Shown here: positions 31,045 to 56,402 of the stretch, one piece after another | Position numbering within the stretch: the first letter of the stretch is position 1 | How the letters are laid out: every line of letters begins with the position of its first letter | Origin: a virus | Virus record (IMG/VR): IMGVR_UViG_3300025151_000018 | Coordinates: 1 to 64,000 of that record | Reading direction: 5' to 3' (one strand) | DNA length: 64,000 nt | Program-made: the position numbers and the translations under genes | Notes under the pieces: generated by a model | Database searches by the model: none | Told to the model about the DNA's origin: nothing | What the model saw: the letters and a program-made list of their open reading frames with translations, nothing else

Positions 31045-32333
31045 AATAGCCTTCTTTGCATTTCCGACATATCAACAGTATTTGGGAAATTTCTCAAACC
31101 AATCATCTCAACCTTTGCTTCTTTGTTGCCTTTTGGTTTCCTAAGCCAAGGGTGTATTGTCATATCAGCATCTTGTGCAGCATCTATGAGATTATACATA
31201 GGTTCACCGTCTTTGTCATACATATAGTTGGAATAAATGACCGGGCCTTCTAACTCTGACGCTATACGCAGGGTATCTCTTTGCAAATCATCAAAGGTCT
31301 TGCCCTGCAATTGCTCTGCCGAACCGCCATAAGAAATATCTCTCCCCTGATATGGTGGATCTAGATAGGTAGTGTGCTGCGGTGTCAAAAACTCTGATGT
31401 TTGTCTTAAATCACCTGTGTGTATATCAACATCTTTCAATCTGGCAGCATAAGGGTCAAGGTTGATTGAGCCAACATCGTGTGGCATATATCTAACGCTT
31501 GAACTTCTAAATGAGCCTTCTGCATTAGGTATCTTGATTTTCCCCTCTGTGTATGGAACGGCAGGTTTTTCACCCCAATCTTCATAGGAAAACATACCAT
31601 CTCTGTATTGAAGGTTTGAACCAACCAGCAAATGAGCAAGCCTCATCAAATCATCATCGTCTAATTTTTCACCCATCACATCTCTCCGATAGCGTATTTC
31701 ATTCAATTCATTCATCATACGCACTTGATCATCATAATCTTGGGCTATATTCACATCACCCATGCCCTGTTGTAGTTGTGTCATAAGATTCGTCATATCT
31801 GGGTTAATATCGCCATATAGACCCCTCCCCTGATTCATTCCCAAAATGTATGAACCACTACCACCGAATAATTCAGCAGGTATCTTATCTTTACCAGCCA
31901 TTTGTGATAAGGCTCTCAATTGTGGTGCTATTTGCGTTTTGCCACCAATCCAATTGACTACCGTTGGCAACATCTCGGTTTCAGGGTTTGTAAAACCGGG
32001 TAAAGATGCAAAGATTTTGTTGTAATCTCCACCCGCCTTTCTCGCTCTCGCCATTTCAGCCCACGGCTTACCCCTTCTTTTGCCACCATCACCAAAATTT
32101 AACTCTGGTAAAATACCCGTAGTTGAAGTTTTGTTGGCCTTTGCGCTATTGTATCGTTCTAAAATATCCTTAATCATGGGGTCTATCTCGTCAATACTCT
32201 CGTATTCTTTCCCTCTGAAACTAATACTTTTCATCAGATCCCACGCATGTTGGGCTGCACGATCATGGGATATAACACCACGCACATTATTCCCTCCGAT
32301 GCCAATGCCGTGATAGACCACCATGCTCGGCAT
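31041..32333 (-). CDS. Dam-type (D12 class) DNA N6-adenine methyltransferase with N-terminal extension
   Basis: 430 aa. D12-class motifs: NWIGGKTQI (128-135, the FxGxK-like motif), ELFGGSGSY (154-162), GDINPDM (174-180) and catalytic DPPY at 325-328. The core starts near residue 120; the first about 115 residues form an extra basic segment (GGKRRGKPWAEMARARK) not typical of Dam enzymes. It is the last gene of the virion operon, far from the two early methyltransferases, so it would act late, perhaps before or during packaging. Ends QRRLF, the QxxLF tail. ATG 32333 or 32324. Confidence 0.85.
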   Translation of the reverse strand: MPSMVVYHGIGIGGNNVRGVISHDRAAQHAWDLMKSISFRGKEYESIDEIDPMIKDILERYNSAKANKTSTTGILPELNFGDGGKRRGKPWAEMARARKAGGDYNKIFASLPGFTNPETEMLPTVVNWIGGKTQIAPQLRALSQMAGKDKIPAELFGGSGSYILGMNQGRGLYGDINPDMTNLMTQLQQGMGDVNIAQDYDDQVRMMNELNEIRYRRDVMGEKLDDDDLMRLAHLLVGSNLQYRDGMFSYEDWGEKPAVPYTEGKIKIPNAEGSFRSSSVRYMPHDVGSINLDPYAARLKDVDIHTGDLRQTSEFLTPQHTTYLDPPYQGRDISYGGSAEQLQGKTFDDLQRDTLRIASELEGPVIYSNYMYDKDGEPMYNLIDAAQDADMTIHPWLRKPKGNKEAKVEMIGLRNFPNTVDMSEMQRRLF

Positions 32334-37400: not shown

Positions 37401-40400
37401 GCTTGTGAATCATAATCATCACGGTTAAGATATGTTTTACGGAGAATAAATACACCACCCCACGCTGGTAAATCACCGCTACCACGAACCGCCCATGTAT
37501 CTATCATGGTATAATCTGGATTGTTTAGCATCTTTGACACTTCTCCACCAGCCAAAGCCCCATGACTTGAAGTTGTATGTAAATTGAAAATTGGTTTGTG
37601 AACAGGTTGATTTATCAAATTCCGCCCATAGGGTTGGTCGCTAATTGATGTGCCATACACATCTGTTGCAGTTGTCGCTACTGCATCATACGGTTTTCTT
37701 GATTCATTGAATTTGGTTTTCCTGTATTTGCTGACATAAGACGGGAGAACGGGGAATTGCTGACCTACAATCAAATCTGTATGTAAAGAAGCAGCCTTTG
37801 TGCTTGTAATGATATACTCTTTCTCTTGCCCTGTCCTTTTCATTGAATGGGGTTCTGTTATTAGCCCCAATCTTGGCGACATATCCGATTGCACTTGTCT
37901 ATGATCAGCAATTTCTGATAATGGTATAGGGAATACCCCTCTAACTGTTGCCGATGTAGTATCTTTCATATCAATTTCTCGCCCCCAACCATGAGATGGG
38001 AAATGGTGTTGCCTGTCATCATGTATGAAATCTGTATTTGTTGATGAGGGTAGTGTAGTGCCTGTGAAAACATCAACAGGGTGTGCGTTTAGGTGCAGGT
38101 TATTCCCTTTCTGGTGAATGAAGTTAGTCGCTGGACTCGCTGAAAACTGTGTAGTTTGTGTCAAAGCATCAACAGAATCCTTTGCTTTCACCGCATCACC
38201 TGTATGGTGATTCAAATCAACAATTGGGTCAGAACCTTTGTTCAATGTCTTAGCAGTAAGCAAAGGTGCGTTTGTTTCCGTTGGCGAAATGCTTGTGAAA
38301 TCGGTCTTAACAGACTCCACTACCCCTGCTGGCATAGCCTTATGACTAACCAGACCTATACTCTCATCTTGTAATACTCTCCCCATTCCTACTTCCTTTT
38401 CACCTTTAGCCCAAGGTTCATTAGAGAGTCTTAGGTAATCCTCACCTGCTGAATGGCTTGTCAATACCATACCAACAGGGGTAGTCCTTTCAACACCCGC
38501 ATAACCTCTCGGCCATAGCCAATCAGCACCATCGTCAATTGTCGGTAGTTTTTGCATGGTATCATGCACACCACCATCAAAGCGAGCAGATCTGGTGATA
38601 GCCTGTTGTGCGGTGTTGCTTGCTGCTGATTGTGCAGGGTCGCCAGCGAGCATATTCAAAGCATCACTTGCCCCTCTCATACCCCATGCTCTAACAGGTA
38701 GCCTACGGCTGAAATCTATTGCCGACATTGGTGATGTAATAGTATAAATCATGTCATAAATTCGGTTAGAAGCATTCTGGTGCAACACAACTTCTTCATA
38801 ACCTACTGTTGGTGTCAAACCATCTCCTATTCCCTCTCCCCTTGATAGCCTCTCAATAGGTATTCCTAACAACGGTATTTGATATTTACTTGGTAGCCTT
38901 AGTGTTCCGTGTGCCTCTCTAACAGTAGTATGCCCCATCAATACAGAACCTGCTGCTCTTAGGCCATGTGTTGTGCCATGACCCCCTGCGTTTAGCCCAT
39001 TGTAGCCATACTGTTGAAGCCATTGGAATACATACATTCTTTCAAATGGTAATGACTTTTCATCTCCATCACTATATCCAATTGTTGTGTGTGATACCTT
39101 TGCATTTCTCAACAACAAGTCCTTAGTAGCGGGGTAATTTGTTGCACCCGGCATACCTGACGCTCGGTATCTCATAGTCATGTATTGCTCACGGCTCGTG
39201 CCGAGTAATGCAGGGTGTGAATACTCGGCTAACCATGTGCAAAGGAAAGCGTCAGGCATTGCGTTTGAGTTGGTATCTTCTGCCTTTGCTAAAGCCAAAT
39301 CTTTGTTTGGCATTAGTAATGGACTACCCTCAAAGTCGGAGGCTGCTGATAACGCACCACCATGAATTGGTTTAGGCGCACTTGCCTTGTTGGTTAATTG
39401 AGGATCGTGCGATAGTAATGGTGGTGTTGTTGCCAATTCTGTCGCAACTCTGGGTTGAGTCCAACCCTGTGGCATACCCTTTGTTGCTAAATATGTATGA
39501 GCAGCAGTAATTGTTCCTAAATACTGTGTCGGATATGGCCGACCACCCATTAGTTTGTATTGACCTATGAAGAAACCGTTTATTGCAAATTCTTCACCTG
39601 CGTTATATGCCCCATTGACGATTTTGTTGCTCGCCAAATCAAATGCAACAGGCGCACCATGACCTGAAAGCGGTGTTGAATATGTTGCAACATCATCCAT
39701 GCCGAGTAAAGATGGTTTGTATGTTGTTGCGTCAGCATCAACAAAGTGCGATTGTTCATAACTGCCAAATGGCATAGTATGCTCTTGACCCGGTGCAAAT
39801 AGTATTTCTGGCTCTTGTCTTGGTCTGCCTGAATAAAATTCATGGTGGAAAGCGTTTGAACCATAGGCTACTTCTTCACAAGGGAATCCGTCAGCCGAGA
39901 ATGAGCCTGTTGAATGGTTGTAAGCATTCAATTTTGTTTCAAGTGTATCAAGATAATATCTGGTTGTAGTTTGAGATGGCTCAAGGTTTTGGAAACCCCA
40001 ATGCTTATGCTCTGTTTCAGCCTCAAACATGAGGGAATACGCTGACCCATGTGAACGGTGTAATTGTCGCCTCAAGGACTTCGGTGTTCCTCTCATAGTC
40101 ATGGGAGATACAAATGAATGCCCCTGCCTACCAAATCTAATCCTATGATGTGGTATTATGGTGGCTGATGGCATACCGTTTGTAGTTTCAGTAAGCACAG
40201 AACCCCGTTCAACATGATCAGACAGACGGTGCGCTGCGAACAGTCTGGTTGTTCCGCTTGGCACAGAACCTACTGTGTTATTCAAGTCCAAACCAAACTG
40301 TGATTCTAATGTGTCATGCAAAATACGCACAGGATGGAAATGTAATACTCTGTCATGTGTGTCAAATTGCGTGGCTTCACCCGGATTACTATCTAATGTG

Positions 40401-43400
40401 GTGTCAAGGTTCTGTTCAACTATTCCGTTCTTTTGCATATTCGGTGCAGTTAAGCCACCCATACCCCATGTTGTATTTCTAAACGCTTGCACCCGATCAT
40501 GACCGCTTCGCACCAAAATGTTGCCCGGTATTTCATCGGCACTTGGTAATGAAATGCGGAGATTTGGGGATAAACCGCTACCAGCATAAGATGGCTCGGT
40601 AGTTTCTAATCCTGTTTCGGGATCTAAACGATTTGAAGGCATCGTGTAATCTTTAATTACTGTGCCAAACGGAGAACCCCCCTCTAAAATCAAGGCGTTG
40701 CCGTTGTCATCAACGACTTCTAAATTATCCCAAACCCTTTCTTCATTGCTTATTGTTAGACCAGATACCCTCTCTGTGTTGTAATTTCTAACCGTTCTAT
40801 ATCCTCTTGCCATTGTGGTTATATCAGTTGCTGAACCTGCGGTTGCATACTGTGCGATTGCGTTATTCAAATCGGTTGTGCCATTATCTATCTCTGTGAT
40901 TTGTGCCAAATGACTGATAGGTGCGCCACCATGTGCAATTTCATAGATTTCATTTGGCTGATATTCAGCGAACCTTGTGGTCGCTCGCATACCATTTTCA
41001 AACGCTATATCCCATTTGTTTTCTGATGGTGCATAGAATAACTCATCACCGTTGTTTAATTGAACGGCATTGTTAGCCGTCAAGGTGATAGTTGTAGCCG
41101 ATCTTGCTAACTTTTCAGCAGCAGGGATAGTTGTTCCAGCAAAACTAATGAATTGAAATCCATCATCAAACATTTTCCCGTAGCCGTAGTATGTTCCATC
41201 AGAACCATACAAATTAAGCCCAAACCATTGGGTATATGGGCTTGCGTATGCGAATAACTCTTGCGCTGCGGTGGCTTTTGTCGCCATAGCCTCAAAACCA
41301 TGTATGCTTATGGATTTAGCAAAGGTGTTGTCAGGCGTTCCCGTTCCATCAGCAAAGACCTGTGCGGATTCGGGGTCATTCACCCGAACATTGTGTGGTG
41401 CGGGAGAGTTTGCATCAACAAAGGTTAATTTTTGCCCTGCGTCAAAGTCGGCTTGGGTGTAATCAGAATAATTTGATGTTGAGCCATTGAAAAGACCACT
41501 TCCGGGTCTTGAAGAATCGCTTTCCCTTCGGACAAATAGCGCAACCTCTCCACCATCAATAGATTGTCCTGTATTCCCTGCAAACGCATTACCGGGTGTA
41601 TCAAATCTAATTGCTTTGGGAGATAATGTCTTTGCAGCCATTACAAAAGGCGTTGTGGGTATTGTTGGCGCACCACCACTAATATCAACCTTAATTGTAT
41701 TAGCCTCGTTATCAATTTCTGAAATGAATTTGCCCGTTCCTACTCCTATTCCACCGCTAAAATACGCCAATTCATCTCCAACGACTAAGAATCTTGAGGG
41801 TGCGTCATCTAATGTTAATACACCGTCTGTGAAGAAGGTCGCATCATTTGTGCAATTAAGGGCAACACCCGGATGTGAAGTGCTTGTAAATGCGTTTGCA
41901 TCAGTAAAGTCTGGTCTAAGACATTTGACATAAGGTGTTGATGCAACTGTGCCTATTTCCGTATCACCATCAGTTTGATAGTATATCTTATCTCCAAGCA
42001 CGAGTTTTTGTGATGGGTCGCCACTTGTAATCTCAAGGAAACCTGCACCATATTGAACGGCTGACCCGTTCCTTGTGTATGTTAGTCCACACGACCTCAA
42101 TCTCGGTCCGTTTGCCAATATACTGAAATTGTTAGCCGAAGGATTATGCGCTGCGCCATTGGGTGTTAGTTGTTGTAATGTTTGAAATGAAGATACCGTT
42201 CCAACTTCTTGTTTGTTGCTATTGTATATTTTGCTACCTACTTCAAAATTCAAACCAAAGTCTGTATCTGGTGTCAAAACCTTAACAGTAGTAGTAGTGC
42301 CAGCACCTTCATTACCACCCGTAAATACATTAGAACCAGATTGTGATGCACCTTGATCAGAAGTGATAAAGCACCCAGATTCGTATGGCCCCATTCCATC
42401 TAATTCTGTTCCATGTTCAACACTTTCAACAGGCATGAGTTTTGTTGCGTCTGTATATCTGTTTGACTTTTCAGGGGCTACATTACTCATTACGCTCGGT
42501 CCATCAAACACCATATCGGGCGGTGGCATTGGTTGTATTAAGCAAGAGTTTAGTCCTTCAATAGAAAAACGAGAAAAGCCACGATTTTTAGAAAAACTAC
42601 TACCTGTTGTAGCATCTTTCTTTGGCTTGCCCCCTCGTGATTCGTGATTAAGCGCAGGTAATCCCATGTTGCCACCATCCATAGGCTTTGCAGTTAGATA
42701 CCATGTCGGCAAGTCCACACCAAGACCTTGAATGATAGGGCCACCATTTGCTGACCCCCAATAACCACCGTTAGAAGGAACATCACCCTCCCATGATACA
42801 ACTACTGTGTGTTGTTCTTCTGTTTCGTTTTGAATAGTGATGATTTCATTTACCGCAATATCTCCACTACTTGCACTATCCGCAGTAATGGTGAAGTCCA
42901 CAAAATATGTAGCAGATCCTAAGATGTTTTCTCCGACAACCTTGTAGCCATCGTATTCTAACACCCTTACCACAGAGCCATTGTCGTAATGCAATATACC
43001 TTTCTTTGGTATATCAGTTGGGTGATGGTGCAAACAATGACCGCCTGTTGTATTACCAGAATGCGGTGCGCTGAAATCGCTCGCCATCATCAACCTAACA
43101 AAAGGGTGTCCTGTCAATGGATAAGTCCAATCACCGACTCCCGCATTGAGAACAGAATACACTTTACCTTGATAGGTCTTAGCCCCAGACATTTTCACAT
43201 ACCTTGCTTTGAGATACCTGTTTCTCCCATGTAGCCCGATTTGGTGATCTCGGCTTGAGTTAATTGCTGATGCAATCATTCTTGTCGCTTCTTCTGTGCC
43301 TAAATCGTATGTCAAGATAGGCAAAGTCGGAACGGTAATCCTTGATTGAATGTTAGCCTGTGCTGCCCTTTTCAAATCCACGACTACAAAGTTAGTGCCA

Positions 43401-43633
43401 TCGGCAGGTGTAATAGATGTAGCATCACCTGCCTGTGGTGTTCTAATTAGCAGGTGAAAACCTTGCTGGCCTCCACCAGCAGCCCATGTGCTATCAACCG
43501 CATCTTCATAGGCGGTGTCTGGATAGGTAAAGTGCATACTAAAATAGCCACTTTTTGGCTTGCCCTGATCTGTGCCGAGAGCGACATTAGCCGAAGCAAA
43601 TCTTTGTTGAGGGAAAACTGTCTTACTAACCAT
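34460..43633 (-). CDS. Giant tail/baseplate hub protein (3057 aa)
   Basis: The longest gene of the window (9.2 kb). Most of the chain is low-charge, beta-rich and His/Gly/Asn-rich without transmembrane spans. Near residues 2650-2920 a hub-like region appears: GKGLFIMDLLRHFSQMDGR, then MMERANHIIIHGD, LIQTLPGLKSKKEGLKLAKR, ILRVEGLAKAQDIEPGDIIG, a pattern I associate with phage tail hub proteins of the gp27/gpD type. The last 130 residues form a beta-rich tail with strands such as SSRVVVRMNNNSSMALG. ATG directly follows the stop of the previous gene. Placement after the tape measure fits a tail tip assembly. Function of the long N-terminal part is unknown. Confidence 0.65.
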   Translation of the reverse strand: MVSKTVFPQQRFASANVALGTDQGKPKSGYFSMHFTYPDTAYEDAVDSTWAAGGGQQGFHLLIRTPQAGDATSITPADGTNFVVVDLKRAAQANIQSRITVPTLPILTYDLGTEEATRMIASAINSSRDHQIGLHGRNRYLKARYVKMSGAKTYQGKVYSVLNAGVGDWTYPLTGHPFVRLMMASDFSAPHSGNTTGGHCLHHHPTDIPKKGILHYDNGSVVRVLEYDGYKVVGENILGSATYFVDFTITADSASSGDIAVNEIITIQNETEEQHTVVVSWEGDVPSNGGYWGSANGGPIIQGLGVDLPTWYLTAKPMDGGNMGLPALNHESRGGKPKKDATTGSSFSKNRGFSRFSIEGLNSCLIQPMPPPDMVFDGPSVMSNVAPEKSNRYTDATKLMPVESVEHGTELDGMGPYESGCFITSDQGASQSGSNVFTGGNEGAGTTTTVKVLTPDTDFGLNFEVGSKIYNSNKQEVGTVSSFQTLQQLTPNGAAHNPSANNFSILANGPRLRSCGLTYTRNGSAVQYGAGFLEITSGDPSQKLVLGDKIYYQTDGDTEIGTVASTPYVKCLRPDFTDANAFTSTSHPGVALNCTNDATFFTDGVLTLDDAPSRFLVVGDELAYFSGGIGVGTGKFISEIDNEANTIKVDISGGAPTIPTTPFVMAAKTLSPKAIRFDTPGNAFAGNTGQSIDGGEVALFVRRESDSSRPGSGLFNGSTSNYSDYTQADFDAGQKLTFVDANSPAPHNVRVNDPESAQVFADGTGTPDNTFAKSISIHGFEAMATKATAAQELFAYASPYTQWFGLNLYGSDGTYYGYGKMFDDGFQFISFAGTTIPAAEKLARSATTITLTANNAVQLNNGDELFYAPSENKWDIAFENGMRATTRFAEYQPNEIYEIAHGGAPISHLAQITEIDNGTTDLNNAIAQYATAGSATDITTMARGYRTVRNYNTERVSGLTISNEERVWDNLEVVDDNGNALILEGGSPFGTVIKDYTMPSNRLDPETGLETTEPSYAGSGLSPNLRISLPSADEIPGNILVRSGHDRVQAFRNTTWGMGGLTAPNMQKNGIVEQNLDTTLDSNPGEATQFDTHDRVLHFHPVRILHDTLESQFGLDLNNTVGSVPSGTTRLFAAHRLSDHVERGSVLTETTNGMPSATIIPHHRIRFGRQGHSFVSPMTMRGTPKSLRRQLHRSHGSAYSLMFEAETEHKHWGFQNLEPSQTTTRYYLDTLETKLNAYNHSTGSFSADGFPCEEVAYGSNAFHHEFYSGRPRQEPEILFAPGQEHTMPFGSYEQSHFVDADATTYKPSLLGMDDVATYSTPLSGHGAPVAFDLASNKIVNGAYNAGEEFAINGFFIGQYKLMGGRPYPTQYLGTITAAHTYLATKGMPQGWTQPRVATELATTPPLLSHDPQLTNKASAPKPIHGGALSAASDFEGSPLLMPNKDLALAKAEDTNSNAMPDAFLCTWLAEYSHPALLGTSREQYMTMRYRASGMPGATNYPATKDLLLRNAKVSHTTIGYSDGDEKSLPFERMYVFQWLQQYGYNGLNAGGHGTTHGLRAAGSVLMGHTTVREAHGTLRLPSKYQIPLLGIPIERLSRGEGIGDGLTPTVGYEEVVLHQNASNRIYDMIYTITSPMSAIDFSRRLPVRAWGMRGASDALNMLAGDPAQSAASNTAQQAITRSARFDGGVHDTMQKLPTIDDGADWLWPRGYAGVERTTPVGMVLTSHSAGEDYLRLSNEPWAKGEKEVGMGRVLQDESIGLVSHKAMPAGVVESVKTDFTSISPTETNAPLLTAKTLNKGSDPIVDLNHHTGDAVKAKDSVDALTQTTQFSASPATNFIHQKGNNLHLNAHPVDVFTGTTLPSSTNTDFIHDDRQHHFPSHGWGREIDMKDTTSATVRGVFPIPLSEIADHRQVQSDMSPRLGLITEPHSMKRTGQEKEYIITSTKAASLHTDLIVGQQFPVLPSYVSKYRKTKFNESRKPYDAVATTATDVYGTSISDQPYGRNLINQPVHKPIFNLHTTSSHGALAGGEVSKMLNNPDYTMIDTWAVRGSGDLPAWGGVFILRKTYLNRDDYDSQALSQHHSFDPLSSEAGQNVRKYVDYVVRAVRPLKITAFSGGQSNSIQHPDGWLLGPNAKVGNAGHFHRDNRYGIFELNEERTSPMIPISSLNSGGVRIDWPDANNRDVVWHLIPSANMLQHFKSDASRTDGQGIIHADTDARYSQSTHPGGGEEVSQSEANHAEITRPFAMAAKNNVAIKKQTPTALTVLGVSSKIVKSAPQPPLSPFGGYIEVEDTSGFPPSGTLIVIGKSGQFTYSNKTRTTFYLNPSAPPATGDLSLDTDLVGMTVRPGKNMGTGVSIYAGATVAAGSTDTLTGVGANWSSGSGTPNVGQQFPSEVFSIGEVIRTRNGVVGTIVAFPSPTSIRFSATVLIEIAQDTMLRGTDNTYKSTKNNIHSVSQKLVIVPSLVDNAMTVASYHTDKWDGTSPNDSVEYAPNISYRGLGHYDPSDFSMLSAQRYTITDGETGGSLSYINKPGTGGLNEVYVDGNTIKDATTPHYLYDGKNKKWRIAGKDKNNNLIFRNLQQNTLSNSGMTIEGIRLGHNISVGVRTTDAALMLLNDITHNISGADLVNYETYKEAVEVIHPDPIFISMGFEPYGKTSLLSMLGGHPSLHNTMQHSDSFVNRTGKGLFIMDLLRHFSQMDGRQLVIGDGGVLLYTEEAFSLSDRRVGSSSAPQLIEVSAMMERANHIIIHGDTVAENETVIAEVKDMEHIKKMGGKGGEGLERTLIQTLPGLKSKKEGLKLAKRLMRRTEQGSSILRVEGLAKAQDIEPGDIIGVDFVMEGIKGEFAVFETYTNFTTGLTNLVIGQYDKGIEGLIADLQSASAETSSTDATTLEDLIDLIFSAPVRVLASSRVVVRMNNNSSMALGAGWRTNATTNLGRPLGNIGVSGGRTGVYSTADHPAGSTTTIAVGTLDSRYRIANGDSIEVRVAATTSSGAATDYDQWLHVGVVGPGALSANTITLIANNAVLVPNGAEIRVIHKRGQPVGQSKSVFYGVS

Positions 43634-46600
43634 TCAAACCCCCCAATTTTTCTGTCCTATTGTCATGGCTTCTTCAACCGATAGAGCCTTCACCCATAAT
43701 CCTAACTCTGCTAACTGCCCCTTGAAATAGGTTCTTGCACGAGATGTTAATGAACCAGCCGTCTGTGAACCACCTTGACTGTTTAGATTGTTGTTGCCGT
43801 ATTGTAATTGTGCAACAGTCCAAAAACCTCCCTGTATTGTAGTGTTATCCGCCAATTCTTTGATTGAACCCCATAGGCCACTTGGTGATATTACCATTGG
43901 CACACCATGCAGGGCAGCACCGATTACAATTTGCCCTTGATACCTACCATAATATGTGCTTCCACTTGCTAACGGATTTGCATTCGTTCCTGTTCCAAGA
44001 CCTTTAGCGAGTCTTGGCATTCCTACTTGACCCCCCAAATATGTTGCATCATTGTTAAGTGGGTATGTGTTAAACGATCCACCGTATAGATAATCACCTG
44101 CGGTTTCTGTGTTTGGCATAGGCACACCATTGTCATAGATAATAGGTGTTCCATCAAGTGGTTTAACCACAGTAATTTGCCTCCAAGCATCTTTTACTGC
44201 CACACCATTCGCCCATGTCGCATGATATTCTCCTGACGCAGCACTATTCTTATGATGGACTACAATTCTATAATCAAATTGTGCATTAGCATCACCAACT
44301 GCCGTCATACCATATTGCCTTGATAAAATTGACACACCCCAAGGTGCGCCATTGTTGTCAATACCATGCAATACAGGCCCGTTTCCATATCCCGATAGTT
44401 GCCATGTGGTATCGGTTGCGTTTGATGGTTTGAAACAGAAGGTGATACTCCAAGGCCCTTGAGCAAGAATATCCCCTGCTCTTGGGGGTATAGTCGGAAC
44501 AGGGTATGACATGGCAGAGGACTTTGTTGGTATTTTTGATAGCGATATTGCCTTATGACCCGAACCGCCCATATCCCAATGAATACCTCTTGCTGATATG
44601 TCGCCTTCTGGCTCTGTTCCAGAGCCTTTGTATAGTGGCTTACCAACTGCCGATGCCTCATTATCCCCTAATAGTATAGAAAAACCTAATGTGCCATTAT
44701 TGAGCAAATCATTTGTAAAATCACCAATCATACCCAATTGCAATCCATATTTGTTTTCAACAGGGCGCATCACAGGTAAAGAACCGGGTGGATCATCTCC
44801 ATAATCAGGCCCACCGTTGCCATCGGGGTCGCCAATGTATGGCAATCCATCATTGTTGAAACGGACATAGGCAATACAATCATCATCTTTGTAGTGCATT
44901 CCCGCATAGGAGTTTGCCTTCGCAGTATCTTGATTGTTTAATTTTGTGAAGTCTAAAACTGCTGCTGATTTTTGTATTTCCTCAACATTTTGCAACCCGC
45001 TATATCCTGTTGGCCCTTTAGAATAATGGTGTGTATAGAAGTCAGAATAATCATTGTCTGTTCCATCACTAACATCAAATGTGATACCTGTATGTCCTCC
45101 ACCAAAGAATAAGATGCCATGAGCGTCAATCATTGGCGATAGTAGTTGGATTTCAACACGCTGATACCTACCATCTTTGTCATAAAACAAATCCTTGAAT
45201 TTTTCTTTGAGTTTTGAGTCATAAGGCTGAACATCCTCTAACGCAGCACAAGCACCCGGTCCAGATACTTTGCAAAATGGTGCGCTAAATGTGCTTACGC
45301 CACCAAAAGTTGCAAGGTGCTTGCCATCAACAAGAATTAGTCCACGCCTATCAAATTGGTTAATGTGGTTCGCTCGGTTCAGCATTTCTAAAATATCCCT
45401 ATCCACCCAAAGCGTAGCCTGTGTATCAGGATCGTAGTCTGGTAGTAATTCAGCCGATGCAGTTGGATTTATTGCATTGTATCTTGGGTTCTTTACTGTA
45501 AAGAATGTCAATTCTTGCCCTATTCCCTCATACAACCGTAGTTTGTTGTCTTGCGTTTCAACAGAACCAACAACCGCACCTGTAAATGTGGTAATAGGAA
45601 CATGAGTTTCACCGTCAGCACCTATTGGTAGTGGTGCAGGGAATGAATTGATTTGATAGGAACGGCTATTTGTAGTCAGCAGCCCACCGCTACCAATTGC
45701 CTGTTGCGGTCTATACCCATAGGGGCTATTGTTGTTGAACCATATAGCGAAGTTTCGTGATGAAGCACCGGGTATTGTGCTATGAATAACGATAGTCATT
45801 CCCGATTCACCATCTCTGCTTTCCACTTCTTTACCCTCAAATGCTCTAACATAGCCCATGTGTGAACCTGTATCTGTGCTTGATGTAGCATAGAAATCAT
45901 CATTTGGCATGGCACTATACGATTGAGCAAATAGTGCAGGTGGATTGAAAGCACTACCTCCATTTGTGTTAGTAGCATTAGGGTGCGCTGCTTGATTGAT
46001 TAGCCTAATGACTTCATTTATGCCTTGATTGAAATCATCAACATTTGTTGCTACTTCACCAAAGTTAATGTGCATTTTTTGCACATGGTCTAAAGTTAGG
46101 TTATCGTTCTTCTTGCCCTTTAGACCAAGATAACTCGGTATCAATTCAATGGGCGGTCTTAATGGCATATCGTCAGCACCGTAGTAGTAGTGCATAGGGT
46201 CTAACTGCATACCCTCCATGCTCGGCCCATCTTTGATTAGTATTGTATTAGAGTCTTTAGGATCGAGCATGACTCTGGCTTTGCCATCGTTGCCAAGCCT
46301 CATGCCAAATAACATCTCAACACTTCTCCCAATTTTCTTCACCAAAGACAGAGCATCGGTTGTGCCAACATCAAATCTCAAATCATCTAAATTCCATGCC
46401 GTTTGCGCCCCTGTTTGAAATGAAGCACCTGTCAGCCACCCGCCCATGACAACAGGCAATCCACTTGAAATGAAATGACCGACAAAGTTTGATTGCGTTG
46501 GATCGGCTGATGATGTATTGTCTAATGGATTGTGAAATGCACCATAATAGAGTCTGTGTGAATTACCAACAATAGCAACCTTGTGTATGAAAAGGCGTAT

Positions 46601-49546
46601 GCCCCAATCACCGAGTATTCCTTCGCCTACGGTCACAATAAACCCTTTACCATCTGGTTCAGGAACGAGAGATGGGTTCTGTGTCAAAGTCCATTCGGCA
46701 TCACCACCATTGTATTCCAAGCCCCCTGCGACCTGCAACGGGTCTTGAAATGCGGGTGATGTGATTGAATAAGAACCGCCTCCTGTCGGTGTTGTGTATT
46801 TTTGACCGCCTTCTTGAATAAACGGCAAGACACTATCAACTTCAATATAGGAAAGGCCGTTTTGCCAATCTGTAATGTTTGCAGATCCAGCAGCCACAGT
46901 TGATTCGGTTGCCGACCAAGACGCTGACGGTTTAGTGTATGTTGCTGCGTTTTCTCTAAAGCATCTAAATGCCTTGATGCCCTTGTTTGTCTGTGCAATG
47001 TAATCATTAACTCTAATTGCCGATATATTGGAGTCAAGCCCCCAATCTATCGCATATTTACTCTCTTGATGTTGCATCTGTGGGCGATTAGCAGCCGTCA
47101 TAGTAGCATCAATAACCATCTCAAGTGCATTTGAAGCAGGGAGAGGGCTATTCTTGTTTTTACTACTAATCAACCGTTTTTGTGTATCAAAAAACATAGA
47201 TGGGAATATGGGAATCTCAACCAATGCACGAGTTGAGGCATAATAGGTTGAAGTTTGCTTGTCATTTCTAACCGATGGGTTGTTTGCGCTCATTATCACA
47301 TCTTTCCAACCAGAAAGGTGCGGGTTTTCCTTGCGTATGGCTTTAATGTCAATGCCACCTTGCCCTAAACCACCCATTGTTAGGCTAACAACAGGGCTAC
47401 CTATGTCGCCAATCTCTTTCATTGGTGAACCTTCGGCTAAATTGAAATCACGATTAGAAACAGAGTCAGCAATATCTCTAACCAGAGATCTGCCACGCAA
47501 TAAGACACCATTTACCTCTCCTTCTTCACCGCCTGTCGGCACTATTTCCTCAACTCTGCCACGCAACATCATCAATTCAACATTACAACGGTGATATTTT
47601 GTTGGTTCATCTTCCTTAGATTTCAATGTTGATAGTGTGTTGGTTCGGCTTCTTTGTTTAGGGTGAATTAGTAGTAAATGTCTGTCATTCATCACCAAAT
47701 TGTCAATAACATCAAACTGTTCTAACACAACAGGCTCAACATTCGGCAATGTTTTTCTAACAGGTTGCCCCCATTGATTATCCACCATTGTCGGTGTTGT
47801 TGCCTTTCCTTCTTTCTGTTTGATGTCAATACTTAGAGTATGATATGCCCCTTCACTTTGCTTAACGGGGCTTCTGGTGTTAGATAGTGCAATTGGCAAC
47901 CCCATAGGTCGGTTGCTTTCAAGTCCTTCTCCTGTGTATGATGCCAATTGACCTCCAAATGCAACCCCTCTTGGTGTTGATTCTATGTTAATGAATGGTG
48001 ATTGTGTAGTTTCTCCTGTTGGGTTGATTAGCAACTCGTTTGATTGTATTGGCTTGTTTATGTCCTTTGTTGGTATAGAAATAAGACCACCGGGTGCGTT
48101 AATCTTCAACGGTGAAGGCTGCGCCCCCGGTAAGGCTGAATTTCCGTATGGCTTTCTTAACCAATCCGCCAAACTTCTTAGCGTTCCGTCTGGATCATAA
48201 TAGAATGTATTTGCATCGGGCATTGTCTTTTCAACTACAAGCCACCCAGACCCATCAAACTCCCATTGTTCGGAGTTTGGACTATTAAAAGACATTTCAG
48301 ACCATTTGTTCTGTGCAGTATCTGTTAAACCATCATGGCTTCCTACACCAGACCCTTTTCTTGTTCCGCCCATCACTTCTCCTGTTAAGTCAATGGCATT
48401 GTAATAGACTAAAACCTTAGACGGACCACCTGCTTGTTGAAGAATAAACGGTGTTTCTATGGTGGCAATTCTGGATTCTTTTTCGGGAGATAAATGTCTA
48501 ATGTAATTCCTGTTGGTGGGTCTAATGCCATTTGTATAATCAAAATGGGCTTCATGCTCTAAATCCAATCCTTTAAGCGCAAACGGTCTAATGTCATCAA
48601 CCCTAATTGATATTATCGTTTCAGCCATAGAACCATCATTGTCAGCAAGAATAACTTTACTGTATGATTTGCCCTGTTGAGATATGATTGCACTTACCTT
48701 ATTTGTAGTCGCCAAATCTTCATATTGACTAATTGTTGATTGTGTTATGGTTTGTAGCCCTTCTCCTTGATACACCGTTTGAGTTATGTCGGCTTTATCA
48801 TTAGTTTCAACCAAACTCCCTACTCCCATATCCTCAAACTTAGCCTCAAACCGATCAGAAATACCTTGCACCGTTTTTGATACATTACTCTCTATTGGGT
48901 TTGGTAATTTTTTGAGGAAGAAGTGTCCTTCAACCTTATTGTATGATGTGAAACCGCACATTGAGGGGTATATTGTATCTGGCTCAAGTAGCATATTTTG
49001 ATTAGCATACGCATTCATTCCAACATAAGATGCTTGTGGGCCTGTTCCCGGTGCAGGGCCAGCAGGTGCGCCACCACCACCACCGCCACCACTTGGAGTA
49101 TATACTCCCGTATTGATTGCAATATCAAATTCATTTGCAGTAAATCCAAATATCTGTTCTAAATGCGCTACATTCCAATTGGCTTTACTAACACAACCTG
49201 TTCCACCCCACCATGTTGGATCCCAAGCCTGTCCTGTTGAAGCATAATTTACTTCATCGGGCTGACATAGGAATGAAGATTGCCCTATACAATATCTTTC
49301 AATGAACATTTGGATTTGACCCGGTGGCAATCCCAAGCCATTAAACATATACGCAATCATTGCCCCTATACAATCTCCCAACTCTTGCCAAGTGTTAGTA
49401 ATGTGAGGATGTCCTATTGCGTTCCAATCAATTGGTGTGGCATAACCAGAACCTACAAACAAAAAGGCTCTGGGGGCGTAATCTATTTGCATTTGAAATG
49501 CAGTTGGCCCTATCGCAATCAATTCAGCCTCGGTAATAGCCGACAT
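43634..49546 (-). CDS. Large tail-tip/fibre protein with C-terminal LamG-like domain (1970 aa)
   Basis: From ATG 49546 (TTG one codon earlier is in frame). Near residue 155 a Gly run (TPSGGGGGGGAPAGPAP) separates an N-terminal domain with several Cys (QSSFLCQPDE, GTGCVSK) from the main body. A middle region (GRSVEMLFGMRLGNDGKARV) resembles tail hub segments. The last about 250 residues show a concanavalin/LamG-like sandwich: GPWSITFCFKPSNATDTTW, YRIVVHH, WRQITVVKPLDG, and FKGQLAELGLWVKALSVEEA, the pattern of glycan-binding modules. Probable receptor binding at the tail tip. Confidence 0.65.
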   Translation of the reverse strand: MSAITEAELIAIGPTAFQMQIDYAPRAFLFVGSGYATPIDWNAIGHPHITNTWQELGDCIGAMIAYMFNGLGLPPGQIQMFIERYCIGQSSFLCQPDEVNYASTGQAWDPTWWGGTGCVSKANWNVAHLEQIFGFTANEFDIAINTGVYTPSGGGGGGGAPAGPAPGTGPQASYVGMNAYANQNMLLEPDTIYPSMCGFTSYNKVEGHFFLKKLPNPIESNVSKTVQGISDRFEAKFEDMGVGSLVETNDKADITQTVYQGEGLQTITQSTISQYEDLATTNKVSAIISQQGKSYSKVILADNDGSMAETIISIRVDDIRPFALKGLDLEHEAHFDYTNGIRPTNRNYIRHLSPEKESRIATIETPFILQQAGGPSKVLVYYNAIDLTGEVMGGTRKGSGVGSHDGLTDTAQNKWSEMSFNSPNSEQWEFDGSGWLVVEKTMPDANTFYYDPDGTLRSLADWLRKPYGNSALPGAQPSPLKINAPGGLISIPTKDINKPIQSNELLINPTGETTQSPFINIESTPRGVAFGGQLASYTGEGLESNRPMGLPIALSNTRSPVKQSEGAYHTLSIDIKQKEGKATTPTMVDNQWGQPVRKTLPNVEPVVLEQFDVIDNLVMNDRHLLLIHPKQRSRTNTLSTLKSKEDEPTKYHRCNVELMMLRGRVEEIVPTGGEEGEVNGVLLRGRSLVRDIADSVSNRDFNLAEGSPMKEIGDIGSPVVSLTMGGLGQGGIDIKAIRKENPHLSGWKDVIMSANNPSVRNDKQTSTYYASTRALVEIPIFPSMFFDTQKRLISSKNKNSPLPASNALEMVIDATMTAANRPQMQHQESKYAIDWGLDSNISAIRVNDYIAQTNKGIKAFRCFRENAATYTKPSASWSATESTVAAGSANITDWQNGLSYIEVDSVLPFIQEGGQKYTTPTGGGSYSITSPAFQDPLQVAGGLEYNGGDAEWTLTQNPSLVPEPDGKGFIVTVGEGILGDWGIRLFIHKVAIVGNSHRLYYGAFHNPLDNTSSADPTQSNFVGHFISSGLPVVMGGWLTGASFQTGAQTAWNLDDLRFDVGTTDALSLVKKIGRSVEMLFGMRLGNDGKARVMLDPKDSNTILIKDGPSMEGMQLDPMHYYYGADDMPLRPPIELIPSYLGLKGKKNDNLTLDHVQKMHINFGEVATNVDDFNQGINEVIRLINQAAHPNATNTNGGSAFNPPALFAQSYSAMPNDDFYATSSTDTGSHMGYVRAFEGKEVESRDGESGMTIVIHSTIPGASSRNFAIWFNNNSPYGYRPQQAIGSGGLLTTNSRSYQINSFPAPLPIGADGETHVPITTFTGAVVGSVETQDNKLRLYEGIGQELTFFTVKNPRYNAINPTASAELLPDYDPDTQATLWVDRDILEMLNRANHINQFDRRGLILVDGKHLATFGGVSTFSAPFCKVSGPGACAALEDVQPYDSKLKEKFKDLFYDKDGRYQRVEIQLLSPMIDAHGILFFGGGHTGITFDVSDGTDNDYSDFYTHHYSKGPTGYSGLQNVEEIQKSAAVLDFTKLNNQDTAKANSYAGMHYKDDDCIAYVRFNNDGLPYIGDPDGNGGPDYGDDPPGSLPVMRPVENKYGLQLGMIGDFTNDLLNNGTLGFSILLGDNEASAVGKPLYKGSGTEPEGDISARGIHWDMGGSGHKAISLSKIPTKSSAMSYPVPTIPPRAGDILAQGPWSITFCFKPSNATDTTWQLSGYGNGPVLHGIDNNGAPWGVSILSRQYGMTAVGDANAQFDYRIVVHHKNSAASGEYHATWANGVAVKDAWRQITVVKPLDGTPIIYDNGVPMPNTETAGDYLYGGSFNTYPLNNDATYLGGQVGMPRLAKGLGTGTNANPLASGSTYYGRYQGQIVIGAALHGVPMVISPSGLWGSIKELADNTTIQGGFWTVAQLQYGNNNLNSQGGSQTAGSLTSRARTYFKGQLAELGLWVKALSVEEAMTIGQKNWGV

Positions 49547-52353
49547 CAAATATCAACTCCGTATTTATCTTCAAGGTGTTGTAGCACTATTTCATCTTGC
49601 TGATCTGTCATGCGTTTAGGGAATACCATAATCTCATGCACTATGAAACCGGGCGGTGCTAAGTCTGTCAAGGTCGGTGTCGGACCGGAATGTAGCATTT
49701 TACCAAACATTTCAAATCCAGAATCTATTGGATTCGCATGATCGAACATCAATGGCGAAGTTGGTGTATATCCGTTTATGTTAGTATGTCCTTTAGCAAA
49801 GGAAAGACCCGATTTGAACATACCATATTCAATCATGTTATTGCTCTGGTCTATTCTAATTGACAGTATATGAGGGTCGCCTTCTGTTGGTTTTACACTT
49901 GCGATAGGGCTACCTATGCCATCAACATCAACTGAAAACTGTGTGCCAGCCGTATTGATTCTAATGTCTATGTTTTGATTACCTGCACTATGAAGAAGCG
50001 GGAAAGAGTTTGACCCATCATACTTTGGAGTTATGACATAATAGAAAGTCCAATTACCATCAGTAGCATCTTCACCATTTATTGTTGAAATAGGCGAACC
50101 TGTGCTTGGGTCTAAGTTGAATGGCATTGGAGTTATCCCATTTACCGTTGGGATTCTAACTGTTGTTCCATTTACAAACGATGAGCCACCATAATAGAAT
50201 TGCCCTGCTGGATAACTCGGTGCTACTGTCGGTGATGAAATTGTCGGTGAACCACCCGGCAAGTTTGACGGCCCATGAGTTTGATACAGACTTCTAATGG
50301 CTTCTAACCCCGATCTGCCTCTAACATTATCGCACACCTTCTTGAATTTCCAACCATCTCCCCAACCAAATAACGCATAATTTTCGTCAGATGTTAATTG
50401 TGTTGATGGTGCTTTATTTCTCCACCAATGAACAACCATTCCATCAAATTTAGCGATTTGACCGTTTGCTTGGTATAATGTATTGAAGTCATTTGCATCA
50501 TACCATAATGCCAAATCCTCAACAAACGGTGGTTGTTCAGCCAATGACTGTGATGGTTGCCCCTGTGCAAACATATTGTTGGCTAATCGTGATTTGGGTG
50601 CAAACCAATAGGCATGGTTGCCATTACCACTAACATCACTAAATCTTTGCGATTGCGTGAACCTTGCCCTTGTGTATTGTCCTCTTGGTCTTGTTAATTG
50701 CCCTGCGACAGAGGCATCGGTTTGCTCTGTGCCGGGGTCTATCGTTAAATCTCCATTTCCTAACACAAACCACACAGGAGTATCATCGGGGTGTTCAAAC
50801 AAGAACCCCTGTGTTTTAGGCTCATTTGCTACTAAACCTGTTGCGGGGTCAGATGATAGAATTGTGCTTTGTATGACGACACATGGTGGCCTATTGACAT
50901 AGCCACCTAACACATCACCAGCATTGTATGACTCATTGAAATTAAATTCTGGCCCTAAACCATAACCACCCGCCAAACCACCCTTGAAATCTATTGCTAC
51001 AATACGGACTCTTTCTATTGGGTTAGACATAGGATCTAAGTTAATCGCACCTGCGGTGTAAATGTCGTCATTCACCGTATCTGTCTGTGAAGCAAGAGGG
51101 CTTCTGTGTGTTCCTGTTATTGGGGATGTTCCTGATGCGTTAATTACTGCGTTTAATGGTGAAATGTGGATAGCCTTGTCAAAGTATGATGCCTTTGTCA
51201 ATTCATTTGACAAATCAAGAATACCAGACTCCCACCACGATTGCAACGGCAATTCTTCAACAGGGATATTTAGAAGATAAGATGCTAATTTTTCATAAGC
51301 CGAAGGTTGCCTTGGGTCAATAGGACTTTCTAAAGAATCTCTGATTCTAAACCAACCATATTGATTACCTGCTGATAATGTTAGTGGATCAGCAGCACCT
51401 GCAACGGTAGCACCCGATGGTGCTATGCTATTGAAGTCATAACCCAAACAAACCATAGGTAAAGGCATCAACCCCTCTGATTTTTCACGCACCGCACCAT
51501 CTTTACCAGATGATGGGTGCAATGGGTTTTTGTTGTTATAGAAATACACTTCTGGTATATCTATTTCATCTTCAAAATTCCATAGACCTGCGGTTTCGCT
51601 TGTTTTTGTTAGTGGTCTTAGCATTGGATCTATGACTCCCCTACTAACCCTAACGCTTTCTATTACGCCTCTAAATTCTCCACCCATGCCACCTATGAAT
51701 ACATCAGATGAAAATGAACGGACAATCCTATCCTCTCCGCCAAAATCAATTTCGCCAACTAAATCCATGTTAATGTATATTCTCATTTTTTGGCGGGTGA
51801 ATTGTGCATTTACATACAACAATTCTCTTTGAGGGAGAGTCAAATCCTCTGGTCTATACTTTGAATATGATTCATTCATCCCATCTATAACCATAGCACC
51901 TGAATATACATCATATTTATTGGCATTGGTGCTACCGAATGCGGGGTATGATGTGGTTGAAACAACCCTCTGGCTTTCTTCTTCTCCGTTTGGTGATAAA
52001 GTATGCACATCAAAGATGGCTCGCCCTTTATTTCTAACATCACCCACCTTCAAGGTATAGCAATTGGGTTTGTGTAATACAACACCACCCATGTCAGGAA
52101 TAATGTATGCTTCAATAGTGAATGCACCTATCATGTTATTCAATGTATTACCCTCATTAGGAATGTGATACATACCTATTTTGGTTTGATTGCTCTCATA
52201 ACTCTGTGTTGCATTTGCAGCCCCTGTTTTTTCTGGGTGATCAGGTGAAAACATATCAACACCAGACTCTGCAAAAGAGCCTGTTGGCACTACCATCCCA
52301 TCAGTATAACCATTTAGGCGAACCGCTTGTGAAAAATGAGAGCGAATAGGCAA
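49546..52353 (-). CDS. Tail protein with two LamG-like domains (935 aa)
   Basis: Two concanavalin-like segments are visible. The first, at about 70-240, includes IGAFTIEAYIIPDMGGVV, FTRQKMRIYINMDLVGEIDF and EFRGVIESVRVSRGVIDP. The second, from about 630 to the end, includes LALWYDANDF, WTFYYVITPKYDGSNSF, and IVHEIMVFPKRMTDQQDEIV. Such domains bind glycans or structural partners. It lies between the distal tail gene and the fibre genes. The stop overlaps the next ATG. Confidence 0.65.
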   Translation of the reverse strand: MPIRSHFSQAVRLNGYTDGMVVPTGSFAESGVDMFSPDHPEKTGAANATQSYESNQTKIGMYHIPNEGNTLNNMIGAFTIEAYIIPDMGGVVLHKPNCYTLKVGDVRNKGRAIFDVHTLSPNGEEESQRVVSTTSYPAFGSTNANKYDVYSGAMVIDGMNESYSKYRPEDLTLPQRELLYVNAQFTRQKMRIYINMDLVGEIDFGGEDRIVRSFSSDVFIGGMGGEFRGVIESVRVSRGVIDPMLRPLTKTSETAGLWNFEDEIDIPEVYFYNNKNPLHPSSGKDGAVREKSEGLMPLPMVCLGYDFNSIAPSGATVAGAADPLTLSAGNQYGWFRIRDSLESPIDPRQPSAYEKLASYLLNIPVEELPLQSWWESGILDLSNELTKASYFDKAIHISPLNAVINASGTSPITGTHRSPLASQTDTVNDDIYTAGAINLDPMSNPIERVRIVAIDFKGGLAGGYGLGPEFNFNESYNAGDVLGGYVNRPPCVVIQSTILSSDPATGLVANEPKTQGFLFEHPDDTPVWFVLGNGDLTIDPGTEQTDASVAGQLTRPRGQYTRARFTQSQRFSDVSGNGNHAYWFAPKSRLANNMFAQGQPSQSLAEQPPFVEDLALWYDANDFNTLYQANGQIAKFDGMVVHWWRNKAPSTQLTSDENYALFGWGDGWKFKKVCDNVRGRSGLEAIRSLYQTHGPSNLPGGSPTISSPTVAPSYPAGQFYYGGSSFVNGTTVRIPTVNGITPMPFNLDPSTGSPISTINGEDATDGNWTFYYVITPKYDGSNSFPLLHSAGNQNIDIRINTAGTQFSVDVDGIGSPIASVKPTEGDPHILSIRIDQSNNMIEYGMFKSGLSFAKGHTNINGYTPTSPLMFDHANPIDSGFEMFGKMLHSGPTPTLTDLAPPGFIVHEIMVFPKRMTDQQDEIVLQHLEDKYGVDI

Positions 52354-53617: not shown

Positions 53618-55348
53618 TTAGACCCCCCTTGTATAACTGCCACCACGAGATCGTGTTCGCATGACCCTCGCAACTTCTTCTGAAATCTGTCTTGCTAACT
53701 TGCGACCATCACCGTTAGCACCATTAACTGTGATATTGATGTTGGTGTCGCCACCACCCCCGCCAGCCATACCCTTCATTACCACAGGAATACTGCGACC
53801 ATCAGGCAATGGCACTATCGCTTCTGTGCCATGCAATTCAACAGGGTAGCCAGACTGTGGCCCTGATGCAATACCACCCTTCTTGAATTTCCATGATTTG
53901 TAATTGATTGTTGGTATATTAACACCGGGTATCTTGTTTGCTAATTTGATACCTGCGTTGATACCTTTCCATAGTGGTGATGTGAAATCAATCAAAGCAT
54001 TGACGGCTTTCGCTGCAAATCCTTTCATTCTATCCCAACCTTTACCCCACATGCCGACAATACCATTCCACAATTCTTTCGCTTTCTCTGTATTTCCTGT
54101 CAAAAGAGCCATAACTATTCTTGATACTCTGATAACAGTCCTAACGATTAGCAAGATCGGTGTTAGAATAAAGCCAAGTGCGTTTAGCAAATACATCCAA
54201 TACGGTTTGATATATGGATAAATCCAACCTATTATCTTGATTACAATACCTATGATGAATCCAGCGACATGAAGTATAACACCGATAAATTCACCAGCCC
54301 ACGCAATTAACTCGCCTAAGAACTCAAATATACCAGAACTAACCAAGAAGTCAAGCAGTATATTCCACCATTCCATAATTTCATTCACTATATCATCAAA
54401 GGTCACGCCCATATCATCAAATGCACCTGTTATGTTGTCAAATACGGCAACAACGCCATCCCAAATAGACATAACTGCATCAACTATTGCTTGCACTATA
54501 CCTGCTTCAACAATAGCGGTAATCAAACCAAATATCATCTCATAAATCATATTGTAGTATGTGAAGAACAATTCAACAACTGCGGTCATGCCATCAGTAA
54601 TGCCACCAAAGAATGATTCAGAGTCAATTTCTGGTAGCACTACATTTGCCTTGAGAGTTTCCCAAAGACCAGACATTCTTCCGGTTTGGTTGTCAAATAA
54701 ATCTCCCATACCTGTCGTTGCTGCTGAAAACACCGGGCCAAATGTTTCGCTTGCTTTAGTGCCAATACTACCTAAGCCACCCTTTATCTTATCAAACGGT
54801 ATTTTGTCTAAAGCACCCTTTACCTTATCAACGGCTGATTGAACAAAGCCAAAGGCATCACCAACCACAGGTAAATCTTCAAGCCAAGCCCGAAGTTTCC
54901 CACCCCCTTGATCTAACGATGCAACAAGAATCATCAACACCGCACTAAATGAAAATATCAAACCAACCATCGTCAATACTGTGCCAACAATGCCCGTTAG
55001 CAGTTTTTTGAACATACCAGCAGTAGCCACAACAGGGGTCAAGACCGCACCAAAAACACCAACAGTCTTTACAAAAGTGTTGAGGGTTTTATCAGCAGCA
55101 CCGCTTTTCTTGTCAAGATGTTCCATTGATTGCACACCAGCATCACCCGATGAGATAAATTTGCTCTTTACGCTCTCTAATGAGAACCCTAATTTGATGT
55201 ATGTATCATACAAAGGACCGAGAAACTTCATCATTACACGATGCTTATCTGGTAATATGGTTAATTGATCGCCATACTGTTGCAGGGTCTTGATATGTTC
55301 AGCGAACTGATAGTCCATACCAGCAATAGTTTTGCCACCCTTAGCCAT
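53618..55348 (-). CDS. Tail tape measure protein (576 aa)
   Basis: A helical N-terminus, then several hydrophobic segments (ILTPVVATAGMF-like region around residues 95-150, MIYEMIFGLITAIVEAGI near 260, and a long block near 345-400), then a Gly-rich C-terminus with GGIASGPQSGYPVELHGTEA and VPLPDGR, a signature of tape measure proteins. Length sets tail length: at about 0.15 nm per residue the tail would be near 85 nm. ATG overlaps the stop of the chaperone frameshift frame. N-terminus MAKGGKTIAG. Confidence 0.85.
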   Translation of the reverse strand: MAKGGKTIAGMDYQFAEHIKTLQQYGDQLTILPDKHRVMMKFLGPLYDTYIKLGFSLESVKSKFISSGDAGVQSMEHLDKKSGAADKTLNTFVKTVGVFGAVLTPVVATAGMFKKLLTGIVGTVLTMVGLIFSFSAVLMILVASLDQGGGKLRAWLEDLPVVGDAFGFVQSAVDKVKGALDKIPFDKIKGGLGSIGTKASETFGPVFSAATTGMGDLFDNQTGRMSGLWETLKANVVLPEIDSESFFGGITDGMTAVVELFFTYYNMIYEMIFGLITAIVEAGIVQAIVDAVMSIWDGVVAVFDNITGAFDDMGVTFDDIVNEIMEWWNILLDFLVSSGIFEFLGELIAWAGEFIGVILHVAGFIIGIVIKIIGWIYPYIKPYWMYLLNALGFILTPILLIVRTVIRVSRIVMALLTGNTEKAKELWNGIVGMWGKGWDRMKGFAAKAVNALIDFTSPLWKGINAGIKLANKIPGVNIPTINYKSWKFKKGGIASGPQSGYPVELHGTEAIVPLPDGRSIPVVMKGMAGGGGGDTNINITVNGANGDGRKLARQISEEVARVMRTRSRGGSYTRGV

Positions 55349-56041
55349 TATCTTTCAACCTCGCATTCATCTTCTCAAAGAAATCAGTATCGCTTGTAGT
55401 CTTAACTGCTCTCCCCTTTGTAGCACCCATATCTTGTTCACGCTTCAATTTATCCAACATTTCAGCCTCTTTTTCCCGATATGCGGTCATCATTAGATAA
55501 TCCAAGATGACCCGTTCAGGGGGTTGGCTATCCCAAGCGTGGGGAGGACACTTGAAAAACTGTCCTAAGAAAAATGTGATAATAGACTGACCTAAGTATG
55601 TTGCTTTGCCTATGGGTATGTCTATATCGCCCTCTCCGTCATAGGAAATGAATGCTTCTATGTCGTCAAGGGTTATGCCAAAGGGCCTGTAATTCCACCT
55701 TGCATTCCCTCCATGAGAGTATCAAACGATGGCAACAATTTCTGTATTTCCTGTGCAATCTCTGGTTTTAGAGTCAGCAATTGCTTTGCGGTTAGAGATG
55801 GTTCTGACTTAGTGATGCACTTAGTGAATACAAACTTCCAAAATCCACCAAAATCAATTTGGGGAATCATATTACCATCACCGTCATTCTTCAAACCGAC
55901 AAATTGACTTAGTGCCTCTTGCCTTTCAATCCAAGTTAGATCCTTTATCCATACGGATAATTCACCAAACTCGGTGTCAATAGTGTGTTGCTCTGAATTA
56001 TTGTCAATTAGTAAATCATTCACTTGTGCTTTCTCCGCCAT
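55341..56041 (-). CDS. Tail assembly chaperone, long form by -1 frameshift (gpG-T-like, 233 aa)
   Basis: The short chaperone frame ends in TAA at 55675-55673. Directly before it, the minus strand reads C CCT TTG, a canonical X XXY YYZ slippery heptamer, and the -1 frame then stays open for 112 codons (GITLDDIEAFISYDGEGD to ARLKDNG) until TAA at 55343-55341, which overlaps the tape measure ATG. The extension has no plausible start of its own near its beginning. Layout and size match lambda gpG/gpGT, where the long form binds the tape measure. Whether the shift happens is untested. Confidence 0.7.
55673..56041 (-). CDS. Tail assembly chaperone, short form (gpG-like, 122 aa)
   Basis: ATG 56041 with AAGGTGAAGG upstream gives 122 aa; GTG 56050 is also in frame. 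Acidic, with a helical C-terminal half (AKQLLTLKPEIAQEIQKLL) and DLTWIERQEALSQFVG in the middle. Such proteins are made in excess of the frameshifted form and keep the tape measure soluble. It sits between the tail tube protein and the tape measure, the classic place. Confidence 0.75.
   Translation of the reverse strand: MAEKAQVNDLLIDNNSEQHTIDTEFGELSVWIKDLTWIERQEALSQFVGLKNDGDGNMIPQIDFGGFWKFVFTKCITKSEPSLTAKQLLTLKPEIAQEIQKLLPSFDTLMEGMQGGITGPLA
55679..55685 (-). promoter_or_regulatory. Slippery heptamer CCCTTTG for -1 frameshifting
   Basis: On the minus strand the 0-frame reads GGC CCT TTG GCA TAA. Both tRNAs can re-pair after slipping back (CCC, TTT). The stop codon lies 3 nt further, the typical distance for phage tail chaperone shift sites. 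Confidence 0.65.
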
Positions 56042-56402
56042 TACCTTCACCTTCTTCTGTGGTTGGCTCTGCTACTGCTTCTTCAACCACTTCAACCTCT
56101 GGTGCGGTTAAGCGAGCCAACAGGTCAGCCTTTGTGCCTGTTGTCGCTAAACCTCTTGTGCTGCATTCAACTTGCAATTCTGTCTTATTCATGTCCTCAA
56201 AGGACTTTGGTTCAACAGGTGCGGGTGCATCCACAGGTGTTTCAGGTGTCGGGGTCGGAGAAGGCTCAAGGATTGCTTCACGGACAACAACAATACCTGC
56301 ACTACTTAGTCCAGCACCTTCAATAATGCCTTTCTCTGTAATAGTCCAATCTAATGCTGCTCTTGTTCCGTTAATTTCCACATGCCCTGTTAGCCTTGCC
56401 AT
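56016..56402 (-). CDS. Small structural protein with SAP-like motif (128 aa)
   Basis: The N-terminal 45 residues form strands (LTGHVEINGTRAALDWTITE). A Pro/Thr-rich linker follows, then MNKTELQVECSTRGLATTGT-KADLLARL (71-98), a SAP-type helix-extended loop-helix used for DNA or protein binding. The C-terminus is acidic. It overlaps the chaperone gene by 26 nt. Probably a minor tail protein. Confidence 0.5.
   Translation of the reverse strand: MARLTGHVEINGTRAALDWTITEKGIIEGAGLSSAGIVVVREAILEPSPTPTPETPVDAPAPVEPKSFEDMNKTELQVECSTRGLATTGTKADLLARLTAPEVEVVEEAVAEPTTEEGEGNGGESTSE

Follow-up and report, generated by a model that had tools for sequence, protein, structure and literature searches.

In phage lambda, a -1 ribosomal frameshift yields gpGT in addition to gpG (Levin 1993; Xu 2004; reviewed in PMC5009743). 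G/GT frameshifts of the same kind have also been suggested in HVTV-1 and HCTV-1/2/5, which are viruses of haloarchaea (PMC5009743; PMC8211752), and in Hardycor1 (PMC7911831). The GenBank record of HVTV-1 annotates the frameshift as a joined coding sequence (gp129/gp130), and its slippery site was read as G_GGA_AAG. Among archaeal genes, -1 frameshifting has been reported in vitro and in vivo for fucA1 of Saccharolobus solfataricus (PMC8211752). Here, we analyzed a candidate site in a 64,000-nucleotide (nt) stretch of viral DNA (the window), which comprises bases 1-64000 of the 100,888-bp virus record IMGVR_UViG_3300025151_000018. The original prediction for this DNA was a programmed -1 frameshift at 55341-56041, in a tail assembly chaperone of a probable archaeal virus. 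Comparison with relatives now makes it very probable that a -1 frameshift at the heptamer CCCTTTG produces two proteins, G and GT, and we have similarly high confidence that the locus is a lambda-type G/GT tail assembly chaperone in a magrovirus-like tailed archaeal virus.

The locus shares with lambda two overlapping open reading frames (ORFs) 5' of the tape measure gene, an X XXY YYZ sequence near the end of G, an extension that lacks a start codon, and a chaperone role. All of its elements lie on the minus strand. G, the short chaperone in the 0 frame (55673-56041), starts with ATG at 56041, encodes 122 amino acids (aa), and ends in frame with ACA GGC CCT TTG GCA TAA at 55673. The slippery heptamer C CCT TTG is at 55679-55685, and the stop TAA (55673-55675) is one codon past it. 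The open stretch of the -1 frame begins 12 codons 5' of the heptamer; after the slip, this frame reads GGC (55679) ATA ACC CTT and continues for 112 codons to a TAA at 55343-55341. This extension, T (55341-55679), has its first ATG, GTG, or TTG at codon 60, and its stop overlaps the ATG (55348) of the tape measure gene (53618-55348, 576 aa), directly downstream. The predicted coordinates, the heptamer before the G stop, the length of the -1 frame, and the overlap with the tape measure ATG were all exact, and the resemblance to the lambda gpG/gpGT layout was borne out by the overlapping ORFs, the startless extension, and the adjoining tape measure gene. We estimate that a heptamer of the X XXY YYZ form arises by chance in about 1 in 256 codons, and the record (100,888 bp) contains 16 copies of CCCTTTG. 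The presence of the heptamer would, by itself, be weak evidence.

Relatives were gathered from IMG/VR using profiles that did not contain the slippery region: profile A4, the extension minus its first nine residues, and profile A5, G minus its last nine. This search provided 105 further loci. With the window included, the 106 loci contained 55 distinct sequences of G-T, which fell into 31 clusters when T was grouped at 80% identity. At every one of the 106 loci, T was in the -1 frame relative to G, and G ended with CCCTTTG, one codon, and a stop (TAA, TGA, or TAG), as it did in all 55 distinct sequences and 31/31 clusters. Protein identity of G and T to the window fell as low as about 33-40% across these relatives. 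Four 0-frame synonymous positions in or beside the heptamer showed no variation at all. The codon that supplies the first C of the heptamer encodes seven different amino acids, and its third base was C in 31/31 clusters, compared to a background of 15-40%. These patterns indicate that the conservation of the heptamer is not due to chance. Eight loci appeared to be exceptions because of a negative overlap. In these cases, the BLAST start preceded the G ORF, and all eight carry the heptamer site.

Selection on the -1 frame was assessed by the ratio of nonsynonymous to synonymous substitution rates (dN/dS). The absence of purifying selection on this frame had been named beforehand as a result that would speak against frameshifting. 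Between close relatives, dN/dS of T was ~0-0.15, as low as that of G, indicating that T is under purifying selection. The comparison with related genomes thus found the site, the extension, and the selection on it conserved, in agreement with the original prediction.

T could instead be a separate gene with its own start, or one reached by termination and reinitiation at the G stop, for instance on the AUA of AUAA. In many members, AUA is the -1 frame codon that overlaps the stop, and overlaps between stops and starts are common in viruses. However, in all 31 clusters the T frame lacks ATG, GTG, and TTG up to and including the heptamer. The first such start codon is found at scattered positions from 8 to 60, and the first ATG at positions from 9 to 75. 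In addition, some members, such as those with GGC TGA or GGT TAA, have a codon other than ATA across the stop, and reinitiation would leave the heptamer free to vary. We therefore consider a separate T gene very improbable.

Another possible explanation is that the heptamer is conserved merely because it is coding in two frames (P-F-G in one and P-L in the other), with no slippage at that place. Both frames are indeed open across the heptamer in most members. This idea has difficulty with two relatives, L073 and L074, in which a stop (TAA or TGA) closes the T frame immediately 5' of CCC and the heptamer is still intact. Moreover, the codon before CCT keeps the same third base even though its amino acid varies, and P-F is never translated if the slip takes place at the heptamer. 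Dual coding appears to be just as improbable as a separate gene. The T-frame stops of L073 and L074, together with the G stop one codon past the heptamer, confine the change of frame to ~10 nt that contain the heptamer. Finally, although single-base errors in contigs often break frames, a single gene split by a base lost or gained in sequencing or assembly has a negligible chance of being correct, since 55 distinct sequences, drawn from many metagenomes, share the same break, always with the stop 3 nt past the heptamer.

A stem-loop downstream of the heptamer, which was absent from the original prediction, was found at 55630-55672. In the window, the 5' arm CCCTT (55672-55668) lies just beyond the G stop, with a 6-nt spacer from the heptamer, and pairs with the 3' arm GAGGG (55634-55630); there is extra pairing within the loop. 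Its minimum free energy is -15.3 kcal/mol (z -3.27 relative to dinucleotide shuffles). Both arms are synonymously frozen, or almost so, in the nearest relatives of the window. The RNAalifold consensus of the window's subgroup contains the 5-bp stem, with a weak synonymous control in that subgroup. Across the family, the 63 nt 3' of the heptamer folded more stably than protein-preserving synonymous shuffles (mean z -1.32 over 31 clusters, Stouffer -7.3), and other G and T windows that did not overlap the stem core gave mean z values of -0.65 to +0.28. The stem usually starts 5-8 nt past the heptamer, and the 3' arm is found in several registers. Paired arms have been rewritten jointly in the wider family, as in ACTTCTCCG/CGGAGAAGT, CCTACCCT/AGGGTAGG, CTTACCCT/AGGGTAAG, ACCTTCCCT/AGGGAAGGT, and TTATGAGG/CCTCATGA. 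In the group that shares the window's stem register, covariation was 0.312 compared to 0.221 for shuffled alignments (0/500), higher than in all shuffles and all slid registers. These data indicate that the stem is preserved through compensatory changes beyond what the protein code requires, and its role as a stimulator is putative.

A Shine-Dalgarno (SD)-like stimulator upstream was also considered. The motif GGTGG/GGCGGTGA, at 55692-55699 (-) in the window and at the same place in relatives, is ~14 nt 5' of the heptamer and, averaged over the family, matches the anti-SD better than any other part of G. The signal at -14 can be accounted for by the Gly-Gly amino-acid sequence there and did not exceed that of synonymous shuffles (z -0.15), which gives this candidate no clear support.

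The identification of G as a tail assembly chaperone, also part of the original prediction, was supported by structure and by its neighbor. G was modeled with AlphaFold (pLDDT 80), and the best Foldseek match of the model was a tail assembly chaperone from Haloarcula hispanica tailed virus 2 (E=3e-6). Chaperones of phage tape measures, along with other proteins named as tail assembly chaperones, followed with weaker E-values. By hhalign, G matched HVTV-1 gp129 with a probability of 79 and E=1.6e-5. Its PHROG match was marginal (E=0.04), a fold search in the PDB gave no match, and tblastn of G and of a 750-aa neighbor returned no matches in phage records. Taken together, the modeled structure indicates that G has the tail assembly chaperone fold. 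T is predicted to be all-helical. Its fold search gave no significant match, no similarity to the T domains of HVTV-1 or HCTV was detectable, and no relatives of T were found in cellular contigs. The tape measure protein matched phrog_58 (E=6e-14) and many other tape-measure families. Overlapping the start of G is a small ORF, 56016-56402 (-), with a stretch (RGLATTGTKADLLARL) that we take to be DNA-binding and SAP-like. The same stretch is also present in L009.

In the proposed mechanism, the majority of ribosomes would translate G and terminate at TAA. On a minority, tRNA-Pro on CCU and tRNA-Leu on UUG would slip together by -1, from C_CCU_UUG to CCC_UUU, with the RNA stem ~6 nt downstream assisting. 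Slipped ribosomes would continue in the -1 frame and produce GT, a protein of ~233 aa that reads ...TGPL-GITLDD... across the junction. By analogy with lambda, G may coat the tape measure and GT may bring in the tail tube protein. The comparative evidence establishes the site, the frame, selection on T, the location of the shift, the stem, and the chaperone fold; the slip in the host, its efficiency, and the sharing of tasks by G and GT are inferred.

Several observations weigh against frameshifting at this site or against the strength of the case. With G in the last position of the heptamer, U_UUG falls short of the canonical optimum for slippage, as the UUG-reading tRNA would have to accept a wobble mismatch on UUU. 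Some lineages (e.g. L074, L077, and L102) have a weak or non-standard stem, and the synonymous control of the stem in the window itself is marginal (fraction 0.06). The 31 clusters are phylogenetically related and, thus, their counts are not independent trials. Also, G and GT as products are deduced from sequence alone, from which the slip itself cannot be demonstrated, and so the original prediction that this virus would show that archaeal ribosomes perform -1 frameshifting was too strong.

Its description of the process as scarcely documented in archaea also had to be revised, given the report on fucA1 and the earlier proposals for HVTV-1, HCTV-1/2/5, and Hardycor1. With these precedents, archaeal -1 frameshifting is already known and a first demonstration is unsupported. 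The fucA1 site resembles that of the window in having a heptamer and a putative stem-loop. In contrast to the window site, known from sequence alone, it belongs to a cellular gene, uses A_AAA_AAT, is not widely conserved, and was experimentally tested. HVTV-1 (Druskaviridae) and HCTV-1/2/5 are, like the window virus, archaeal tailed viruses of similar size with a related portal and a profile-related G (E=1.6e-5), and they differ from it in the heptamer and in T domains that have no detectable similarity. The locus differs from that of lambda in the sequence C_CCU_UUG, a stop that is always one codon past the site, a family-wide stem-loop, and its archaeal-type virus. What appears to be new is that magrovirus-like viruses have a G/GT frameshift, and that theirs combines a heptamer of another sequence, without variation among them, with a stop at a fixed position and a stem that covaries. 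A more tentative idea, which we consider doubtful, is that C_CCU_UUG, one codon, the stop, and the stem form a fixed compact cassette, in which the fixed stop and the abutting stem would be part of the stimulator and would be tuned to archaeal ribosomes, unlike bacterial and halovirus G/GT sites.

The gene content of the record makes an archaeal virus, as originally predicted, highly likely. Replication genes are on the plus strand (family B polymerase [PolB], replication factor C [RFC] small subunit, primase PriL, and a Hef/XPF-like nuclease) and virion genes are on the minus strand (terminase, portal, protease, and tape measure). The portal matched 11 records, all with archaeal hosts, with the best match in HCTV-5 (E=2e-51). 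The record also contains an HMG-CoA-lyase-like gene and a group II chaperonin (thermosome) at 98054-99643 of the record (L043:15554-17143, +), which scored 567 against a curated cut-off of 450. Aoguangviridae, in the order Magrovirales, are viruses of marine archaea (PMC10768690). The size, the two opposed modules, the chaperonin, and the HMG-CoA lyase fit the International Committee on Taxonomy of Viruses (ICTV) description of this family (PMC10768690), and the virus is therefore called magrovirus-like, a label of our own that is based on this description; the host would be Poseidoniales. By description, Aobingvirus yangshanense of this family resembles the record in its 90-110 kb size, its opposed replication and virion modules, and its PolB, RFC, primase, chaperonin, and HMG-CoA lyase, and its genome map labels a TAC gene (PMC10768690). 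The family's ICTV profile names the chaperonin GroEL (PMC10768690), whereas that of the record scores as a thermosome. No mention of frameshifting in magroviruses was found in the magrovirus literature searched, in which coverage of key papers was incomplete.

Other features of the window were noted as well. Two giant ORFs at the end of the virion module, 34460-43633 (-) with 3057 aa and 43634-49549 (-) with 1971 aa, had no PHROG match. There are three DNA methyltransferase genes, at 22988-24301 (+), 24561-25715 (+), and 31041-32333 (-), with the Pfam families N6_N4_Mtase twice and MethyltransfD12.

To our knowledge, experimental support for archaeal -1 frameshifting comes from one cellular gene, and the archaeal viral cases in the literature surveyed are predictions from one or a few genomes. 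The annotation of these genomes should be corrected, as T is currently overlooked because it has no start codon. The family also supplies a site that could be taken directly into reporter assays in archaea. The many marine archaeal virus lineages with an invariant site, a selected extension, and a covarying stem provide strong comparative evidence that archaeal ribosomes are routinely exploited for -1 frameshifting.
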